From a virus, in the IMG/VR virus record IMGVR_UViG_3300032213_000350, positions 1 through 21,555 of that record: a stretch of 21,555 nucleotides of DNA. One strand, 5' to 3'. The notes below the pieces were generated by a model. That model was given only the letters and a program-made list of their open reading frames with translations, made no database searches and was not told the origin of the DNA. Of this stretch, positions 1,177-3,501 are shown one piece after another; positions within the stretch are counted from its first letter, which is position 1; every line of letters begins with the position of its first letter. The position numbers and the translations under genes were made by a program.

Positions 1177-1192
1177 TTATCGTTTACGATAA
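1177..1192 (+). promoter_or_regulatory. Palindromic element copy 1 (TATCG-TTTA-CGATA)
   Basis: Arms TATCG (1178-1182) and CGATA (1187-1191) flank TTTA; a further T-A and A-T pair extends the symmetry to 7 bp (1176-1193). Unlike most copies it is not directly before a start codon. It lies 180 nt before the capsid ATG and 48 nt before the ATG of a 30-codon ORF, at the 5' side of a stem-loop cluster. Confidence 0.6.
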
Positions 1193-1239
1193 TAATTAGG
1201 GATTCAGCCGCACTCTGGCTGGCGAGTTTTCGACCTCGC

Positions 1240-1332
1240 ATGAAAAACGATTTCTGGACAGATAAAAACTCTGGGTTGAGTCCAGCAGAGGAAACCAAGC
1301 ATTCGCTTGCTATTCCTCGATGGTATAGTTAG
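1240..1332 (+). CDS. Possible 30-residue small protein
   Basis: ATG at 1240 to TAG at 1330-1332 gives a 30-residue peptide beginning MKNDFWTDKN and ending IPRWYS, with two Trp and a plausible mixed composition. The frame is also open without an ATG back to 1138. There is no Shine-Dalgarno sequence, but other genes here lack one too. The start lies 48 nt after palindrome copy 1. It is too short to judge by composition and overlaps strong inverted repeats, so it may be chance. I recognise no family. Confidence 0.2.
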   Translation: MKNDFWTDKNSGLSPAEETKHSLAIPRWYS

Positions 1333-1371
1333 CGGTGCAAAACTAAACCAAAACTAAAATTAAATAAATCA

Positions 1372-2781
1372 ATGAGCGATCAACTCTATTTCAACAGTTG
1401 TGCCGAGATTGACAGTTTCTTCCGCGAGGGCCGCGAATATTTCAACGACCTCTATGTGAAGAAGCTTGTTACTAACAGCGCATACTTCACACGTTTCGAG
1501 GAGCAAGCATGGCCCCTCAATCACACCACTGAGCAAAAAGCGTTCCGCTTTGGCCGTGGATTCCACGATCCTTGCACGCCCTTCCGTGCAATCACCGACA
1601 CCTATTGCGAGACTGATTCTTGCGACAGCAAACCAGAAGTCATTCAGCGTCCCGGCACTGAGAGCTACACTTTCGAGCTTCTCCGTAAAGAGATGACCAC
1701 TGACTGGATTTGCGTTGAGAGCCTTCTCTATCGCCTTTTCCCTGCTGAAGAGATTCTTCAGTTCGAGGAGTCGAATGCTCGCATCACGAAGAATGTCCAC
1801 GAAGAGTTCCTTCGTTCTAACTACATTGGTGGTTCCGGCCACAAATGGATGGGCATCACCACTGATGACGGCACTTACTGCGGTCTCGTTGACGATCAAG
1901 CTTGGTTCGTTCCAGAGCACACGATCAACAACGAAGCTGGCTACGATCTCTGCGCTCTTCGCGTTAAGCTCGCTCCTGCTGACCTCAACAAGATTGCTTA
2001 CCTCTCGCTTGATATGCTTGATGACGCACTCGTTGATCTTCAAGACGAAGATGACGCTTTCCGTCTCGATCTTCAAGACGCGACTGGCCAGCCTTTGCTC
2101 GACATCGTTATCCCTGATCCTCAAGTTGGCCGTGCGCTTTACTTCCAAGCCAAGCGCAACAATGGTTACTGGGATGCAAACACCGACTTCGATGAACGTC
2201 TTACTCGTCTGAAGCTCGGCATCAACCGCATCATCGGTGACTACGCCTTCGGATACGACATCAACTCCGCTCGTTTCAACGCTGATACTGCCTTCAATGC
2301 TGGTCTCGCTGCGTTCAACGAAGCTGATCCTGCAACATGGGCACGTCTCGTTCGCGTTCCTCGTTACATCAAGACTGTTCTTGAAAACGGATGCGCTTAT
2401 ATCCCAAACAAAGCCTACCGCAATGCCGACTTCGGTATCTCGGTTGCTATGGTGAACAAAGCAATGGTTAAGTGGACAATGCCATCCTCGACTGGATACG
2501 GCCAAGCCCAACAGATGACCCAGAACTACGCTGGCGATTGGGAGTGGAAGAATCCAGATTGGGAGTGCAACCGCTGGCGCAAAACGGGCTTTTATCAAGC
2601 CCAGTTCCGTCTTGCCGCACAGGTCAAAGACCCAACCATCATGCACTCGTTCCTGCATCGTCTGCCTAAGAGCAAGAATCTCTATGGTTCCTGCTGCCCT
2701 GTGCAGAGCTACATCGTTCCTGAGAACAATCAGGATTGCTATAGCTGCGCTGGTGTGGGTGACATCGTTGTGCCTTCCTAA
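1372..2781 (+). CDS. Putative major capsid protein
   Basis: A 469-residue protein, within the usual size range for HK97-fold major capsid proteins. It follows a coiled-coil scaffold-like gene and precedes small head-associated genes, the usual head-module order. The N-terminal ~70 residues are charged; a long acidic/amphipathic helical stretch follows in the middle (around LSLDMLDDALVDLQDEDDAF), then mixed alpha/beta sequence. Its codon choice is strikingly biased to C-ending codons (ttc, gac, ctc, cgc) compared with the fibre genes, as expected for the most expressed virion gene. There are 13 Cys, including SCC and CYSC near the C-terminus, unusual for a capsid. No Shine-Dalgarno sequence is seen; the ATG follows an A-rich leader. 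The call rests on size, context and codon bias rather than a diagnostic motif. Confidence 0.7.
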   Translation: MSDQLYFNSCAEIDSFFREGREYFNDLYVKKLVTNSAYFTRFEEQAWPLNHTTEQKAFRFGRGFHDPCTPFRAITDTYCETDSCDSKPEVIQRPGTESYTFELLRKEMTTDWICVESLLYRLFPAEEILQFEESNARITKNVHEEFLRSNYIGGSGHKWMGITTDDGTYCGLVDDQAWFVPEHTINNEAGYDLCALRVKLAPADLNKIAYLSLDMLDDALVDLQDEDDAFRLDLQDATGQPLLDIVIPDPQVGRALYFQAKRNNGYWDANTDFDERLTRLKLGINRIIGDYAFGYDINSARFNADTAFNAGLAAFNEADPATWARLVRVPRYIKTVLENGCAYIPNKAYRNADFGISVAMVNKAMVKWTMPSSTGYGQAQQMTQNYAGDWEWKNPDWECNRWRKTGFYQAQFRLAAQVKDPTIMHSFLHRLPKSKNLYGSCCPVQSYIVPENNQDCYSCAGVGDIVVPS

Positions 2782-2789
2782 GTTAAACA

Positions 2790-2817
2790 GGGGGGGGGCT
2801 TATTCAAGCCTCTCCCC
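2790..2817 (+). terminator. G-rich hairpin after the capsid gene (attenuator or mRNA 3'-end stem)
   Basis: A run of nine G (2790-2798) followed by CTT pairs with AAGCCTCTCCCC (2806-2817) around an ATTC loop. That gives about 12 bp including two G-T pairs. No T tract follows, so it is more likely a leaky attenuator or a 3'-end stabiliser that keeps capsid mRNA abundant than a full terminator. Confidence 0.55.
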
Positions 2818-3451: not shown

Positions 3452-3462
3452 ACCTAAACCTT

Positions 3463-3501
3463 GGGTGGGGAAGTAAATCCTTCCTCACCCATACCCTTTT
3501 T
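3463..3501 (+). terminator. Likely (leaky) terminator after the decoration-like gene
   Basis: GGGTGGGGAAG (3463-3473) pairs with CTTCCTCACCC (3480-3490), 11 bp with one G-T pair and a 6-nt loop. Six bases later a run of five T (3497-3501) follows. The next start codon is at 3507, so read-through or partial termination is likely. Confidence 0.6.

Follow-up and report, generated by a model that had tools for sequence, protein, structure and literature searches.

Why does a viral genome with closely spaced genes keep a long gap in front of its putative major capsid gene? The window analyzed here comprises 21,555 nt of viral DNA, one strand, taken from positions 1–21,555 of the record IMGVR_UViG_3300032213_000350. 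Its intergenic gap at 1046–1371 measures 326 nt, whereas all other gaps checked in the window are 55 nt or shorter, in line with an earlier note that had pointed to a long gap before the capsid gene. The inverted repeats named in that note are also present: GAGGAA (1288–1293) and TTCCTC (1313–1318) enclose CAAGC (1296–1300) and GCTTG (1305–1309), and there are others. We found that the repeats at 1177–1332 belong to a larger cis-acting leader RNA of ~170 nt, spanning about 1161–1345. Comparison with relatives shows a conserved and co-varying 5′ leader RNA with several predicted hairpins and three predicted pseudoknots, one of which would be formed by the very 5′ end. That this RNA is a functional leader acting in cis is very likely.

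Flanking signals of the leader and the putative capsid gene

Inspection of the plus strand upstream of the repeats revealed the intrinsic terminator of the upstream operon (1072–1114). Its hairpin (1072–1106) is a perfect 13-bp inverted repeat, TTGGGGGAGGTAG/CTACCTCCCCCAA, followed by TTTTTT at 1109–1114. The earlier note had located the repeats between this terminator and the capsid gene. Both the terminator and the general setting were found as described, with the correction that a TTGACA promoter element on the plus strand (−35, 1126–1131) separates the terminator from the RNA. The −10 region lies at about 1149–1154 and the predicted +1 at about 1160–1161. An exact TTGACA occurs in all 97 unique leaders, 43–48 nt 5′ of an [AC]CGA anchor. 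Judged from the TTGACA match and the usual sigma-70 geometry, the transcript would start ~1–3 nt from the 5′ strand of the first pseudoknot (PK1). The near-constant distance of TTGACA, together with a strong terminator just upstream, indicates that the RNA is a 5′-terminal leader.

The gene downstream (1372–2781, plus strand) encodes a 469-aa protein for which no match was found in PHROGs, Pfam or PDB profiles, and its AlphaFold model is poor (pLDDT 30) and unusable for fold assignment. The protein is putatively assigned as the major capsid protein by gene context. The gene that follows has a weak major-tail-protein match, and in a relative a gene resembling a terminase, by a weak PHROG match, lies close to this late cluster. 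The putative capsid protein also carries many invariant cysteines. An A/C-rich, almost G-free spacer without a Shine-Dalgarno (SD) motif (1341–1371, plus strand) leads to the start codon. G makes up 1.6% of the last 35 nt before the AUG, and an SD-like motif is found in the last 20 nt of none of the 97 leaders. Right after the capsid stop codon lies a strong hairpin without a U-tract (2790–2817, plus strand), with about −21 to −36 kcal/mol in relatives. Its structure is retained while its sequence varies in all relatives checked. A terminator-like hairpin with CCCTTTTT follows the next gene (3462–3500, plus strand).

Architecture and covariation of the leader RNA

The IMG/VR loci of capsid-gene relatives supplied 97 unique leaders, which include 55 non-redundant ones. 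We aligned 54 non-redundant leaders by sequence only, with MAFFT, and measured the alignment against a two-pseudoknot structure. Mis-registration of some rows in hairpin H2 and PK1 depresses the counts for these two helices and does not inflate them. All the elements below lie on the plus strand.

The 5′ strand of PK1, AGAG (1162–1165), lies at or beside the predicted transcript 5′ end and pairs with 1213–1216. Compensatory changes are seen in all four pairs of PK1, and 90% of its cells are paired. The helix P1 (1170–1171/1199–1200) closes the apical hairpin H1 (1176–1182/1187–1193). P1 is paired in 54/54 rows through a clean exchange, C-G in 37 sequences and A-U in 17. Hairpin H2 (1205–1209/1217–1221) presents the loop CUCU (1213–1216), which is the 3′ strand of PK1, and has compensatory changes in 5/5 pairs. 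PK2 (1222–1250) consists of the stem GCGAG/CUCGC (1222–1226/1235–1239), the loop UCG (1230–1232) of which pairs with CGA (1248–1250). Every pair of PK2 shows compensatory changes, and its strands appear among relatives as UCG/CGA, CAGA/UCUG, CAGC/GCUG, CAUC/GAUG, UAG/CUA and CCG/CGG.

The 3′ part contains the stem S3, CUGGAC/GUCCAG (1254–1259/1280–1285), and PK3, in which strand a (CUCUG, 1269–1273) pairs with strand b (CAGAG, 1286–1290). As MAFFT had placed a gap at PK3, this pseudoknot was scored in its own register. Its strands are paired in 90% of cells, whereas shuffling of the strands leaves 61% and sliding no more than 41%. There are six complementary solutions: CUCUG/CAGAG, CGAG/CUCG, UUCGG/CCGAA, GAGG/CCUC, CCUUG/CAGGG and UCCUA/UAGGA. 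A further hairpin within 1286–1318 (b/c, 1288–1293/1313–1318) has the near-invariant tip AAGC-AYUC-GCUU and is a rival of PK3 for strand b. A weak 3′ mini-hairpin, UAGUU/AACUA (1326–1345), was recognized by eye in many, not all, relatives. Several unpaired positions are highly conserved, namely GGUNGA, UUAG and AAGCAYUCGCUU. By eye, the leaders look mosaic (L101, L241 and L298), with 5′ and 3′ modules combined differently among phages, which suggests recombination within the leader.

Over the 54 leaders, 94.4% of the cells to be paired are paired, against 79.1% in shuffles and 31–42% with the partners slid, and double-sided compensatory cells number 269 against 85 in shuffles, the null in both comparisons being blind to kinship. 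Conserved structure is therefore accompanied by compensatory change, as in cis-regulatory leader RNAs generally, and the alignment of relatives proposed in the earlier note gives compensatory RNA pairs far beyond chance. The same note had named conservation as protein among the outcomes that would refute its reading. We reject a protein-coding explanation, as no frame is generally open and the core lengths fall into all three frame classes. Nested folding of the plus strand exceeds chance only mildly (z −2.1 to −2.2), as the decisive helices are pseudoknots. A minus-strand RNA folds slightly better against shuffles (z −3.2), yet the promoter and the gene orientation favor the plus strand, which is also weakly favored by the G·U and A·C cells (28 vs 16). 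Two further pairings were discarded after inspection by eye: the long-range pairing GGATTCAGCC/GGGTTGAGTCC of the MFE structure is not kept in relatives, and no consistent pairing links the H2 loop to the loop of the 3′ mini-hairpin.

The earlier note had the element begin with a copy of a palindrome. The palindrome is indeed there, but the real start lies ~15 nt earlier, at the PK1 strand 1162–1165. In the clade of the window, the palindrome ATTATCGTTTACGATAAT (1176–1193, TTATCG-N4-CGATAA) is the apical hairpin H1, and a divergent clade has GC-GUGA-GC in its place. The palindrome thus appears as a replaceable peripheral hairpin outside the core. TATCG-N4-CGATA also occurs 4–8 nt before five start codons (3775, 10686, 11617, 14449 and 19318), and likewise in relatives; further copies are at 1178 and 16978. 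Before start codons it could be an RNA hairpin or a DNA operator controlling initiation.

Distribution of the leader family

Scanning IMG/VR with the 469-aa protein yielded 207 stretches encoding a relative, of which the best 80 of 207 were kept, and a second scan with an alignment returned capsid-candidate relatives down to about 79% identity. In 110 of 113 pattern matches, 60–84 nt separate the hairpin tip of the leader from the capsid start codon downstream; the other three are cut by contig ends. Among the matches listed in two further scans, the leader again stands before this putative capsid gene or is truncated at the end of its contig. This exclusivity holds for the matches inspected, with search patterns derived from the leader family itself. 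In 14 of 15 long records, a covariance model of the nested helices matched just once at full length with a high score, and low-scoring matches elsewhere in the genomes are mostly the palindrome hairpin alone. The 58-kb contig G010, which carries L023, L096 and L133, has two equal full-length matches (269–438 and 54479–54648). This may be redundancy at the contig ends and not a genuine second copy. The RNA therefore keeps the constant 5′ UTR position before one gene that is typical of a cis-regulatory leader, its start being placed by the promoter match.

A free small RNA or a DNA packaging site, two of the jobs put forward in the earlier note, would also be a compact, conserved and non-coding element. 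The linkage to the capsid gene is invariant and no terminator follows the RNA, which argues against a small RNA, and packaging has no need of a promoter-locked 5′ end or of compensatory RNA pairs. We regard either role as very improbable.

The covariance search suggested in the earlier note returned no family: the window has no match in Rfam 15 at the gathering threshold, and the leader with eight divergent relatives gives only sub-threshold matches at a permissive E-value. ARAGORN found no tRNA or tmRNA. By keyword, no such motif appears in two motif surveys (PMC2864571, PMC8040213). Neither the protein nor the RNA has a match in cultured phages, among which one weak terminase fragment is the only match. 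A collection of bacterial and archaeal genomes has no match to the protein or to the RNA pattern. From the scarcity of SD motifs, our guess is that the host belongs to Bacteroidota.

Competition for strand b

Strand b is complementary both to a (PK3) and to c (hairpin). With nucleotides in common, the two pairings are in part mutually exclusive, and b/c can be an alternative fold to PK3. Many sequences have the same letters in a and c, which strand exchange would lead one to expect. L241 and L298 have joint changes in a and b next to an unchanged c, and there wobble pairs maintain b/c. Over the shared nucleotides, b/c has 4.70 of 5 positions paired, compared with 4.27 with swapped c, a weak statistical contrast. 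The retention of this competition suggests a conformational role.

Such a role would fit a regulated switch. The folded RNA would be bound by the capsid protein, by some other protein of phage or host, or by a ligand, and capsid output would depend on which of a/b and b/c forms, be it through autogenous control or through co-transcriptional timing. The competition and the conserved unpaired motifs make the switch the main rival to the protective function discussed below. A phage precedent exists in T4 gene 32, whose product is described as an autogenous, mRNA-specific repressor (PMC535899). The leader, however, has no visible expression platform. No U-tract follows c, and the A/C-rich spacer likewise does not provide the terminator of a riboswitch; the start codon is 50+ nt further on, behind a spacer that is open in either state. 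With the b/c statistics weak as well, we consider a switch possible but unlikely.

Possible function in 5′-end protection

The function that we favor, tentatively, is protection of the 5′ end and thereby high expression of the putative capsid mRNA. The first few transcribed nucleotides would be locked into the H2 loop through PK1, and PK2 and PK3 would compact the rest of the leader. The nearly G-free, SD-less spacer could then serve as an open landing site for ribosomes, and the leader together with the stable post-stop hairpin would yield a long-lived and heavily translated capsid message. We prefer this mechanism for three reasons: the covarying PK1 would sequester the extreme 5′ end, the capsid gene is presumably one of the most strongly expressed late genes, and the 3′ side is guarded by a stable hairpin. 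It is known that 5′-terminal stem-loops stabilize mRNA (PMC3997798), and bacterial RNase J1 is stopped in vitro by a flaviviral exonuclease-resistant RNA (PMC5760640). Against simple armor, the unpaired GGUNGA, UUAG and AAGCAYUCGCUU are more conserved than armor needs, and the competition for strand b hints at a conformational role. The regulatory leader for capsid output proposed in the earlier note fits an element that is in cis, co-oriented, promoter-adjacent and evolving as RNA structure; such a leader may raise, lower or conditionally control capsid output.

A bolder version of 5′-end protection sees in the leader a bacterial counterpart of viral exonuclease-resistant RNAs (xrRNAs), that is, a phage three-pseudoknot 5′ armor evolved to protect the capsid mRNA, possibly with co-transcriptional strand exchange from a/b to b/c as a folding clock. 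We treat this version as a speculation with a rather low chance of being correct.

The open spacer also invites the view that the fold itself contacts the ribosome and recruits translation, in a genome that hardly uses SD motifs (SD-like motifs precede only 4 of 57 mechanically chosen ORFs in a 60-kb relative). Other genes of the same genome nevertheless start with neither an SD motif nor a leader RNA, and 50+ nt lie between the end of the fold and the AUG, which makes direct recruitment improbable. The place of the leader at the start of a late transcript, with hairpins and a terminator-like site downstream, is reminiscent of a put-like RNA that modifies RNA polymerase for read-through of late-operon terminators. 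The architecture is unlike the two-hairpin put RNAs, however, and the first downstream terminator-like site lies behind the second gene, consistent with a short capsid operon; we think a put-like action quite improbable too.

Comparison with known systems

The leader represents an RNA family absent from Rfam 15 and linked to the putative capsid gene across a widespread group of uncultivated phages. It offers a system in which to ask how phages with little use of SD motifs reach very high capsid expression, and possibly a test case for exonuclease-resistant RNA in bacteria.

The T4 gene 32 operator is a leader pseudoknot. It is likewise part of a phage mRNA leader before an abundant protein, although this autogenous operator differs in size and architecture from the present leader. 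The put RNAs of HK022, too, are cis RNAs with which a phage transcript begins. They consist of two hairpins, which sets them apart from the leader described here. The manA and wcaG motifs are structured RNAs from environmental phages as well, linked to metabolic genes (PMC2864571), whereas our RNA is capsid-linked and has no Rfam match. Flaviviral xrRNAs (PMC5760640) share with the leader a compact pseudoknotted fold in which 5′ nucleotides pair back into the structure. Ring topology and nuclease resistance are features of xrRNAs; the phage fold is a comparative prediction, has no family match and occupies the leader position of a gene in a DNA phage. The 5′-terminal stem-loops of ompA and papA (PMC3997798) likewise sequester the 5′ end before an abundant structural protein, the function which we infer for the phage RNA. 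Those are simple stem-loops, whereas the phage leader is a covarying three-pseudoknot RNA of ~170 nt.
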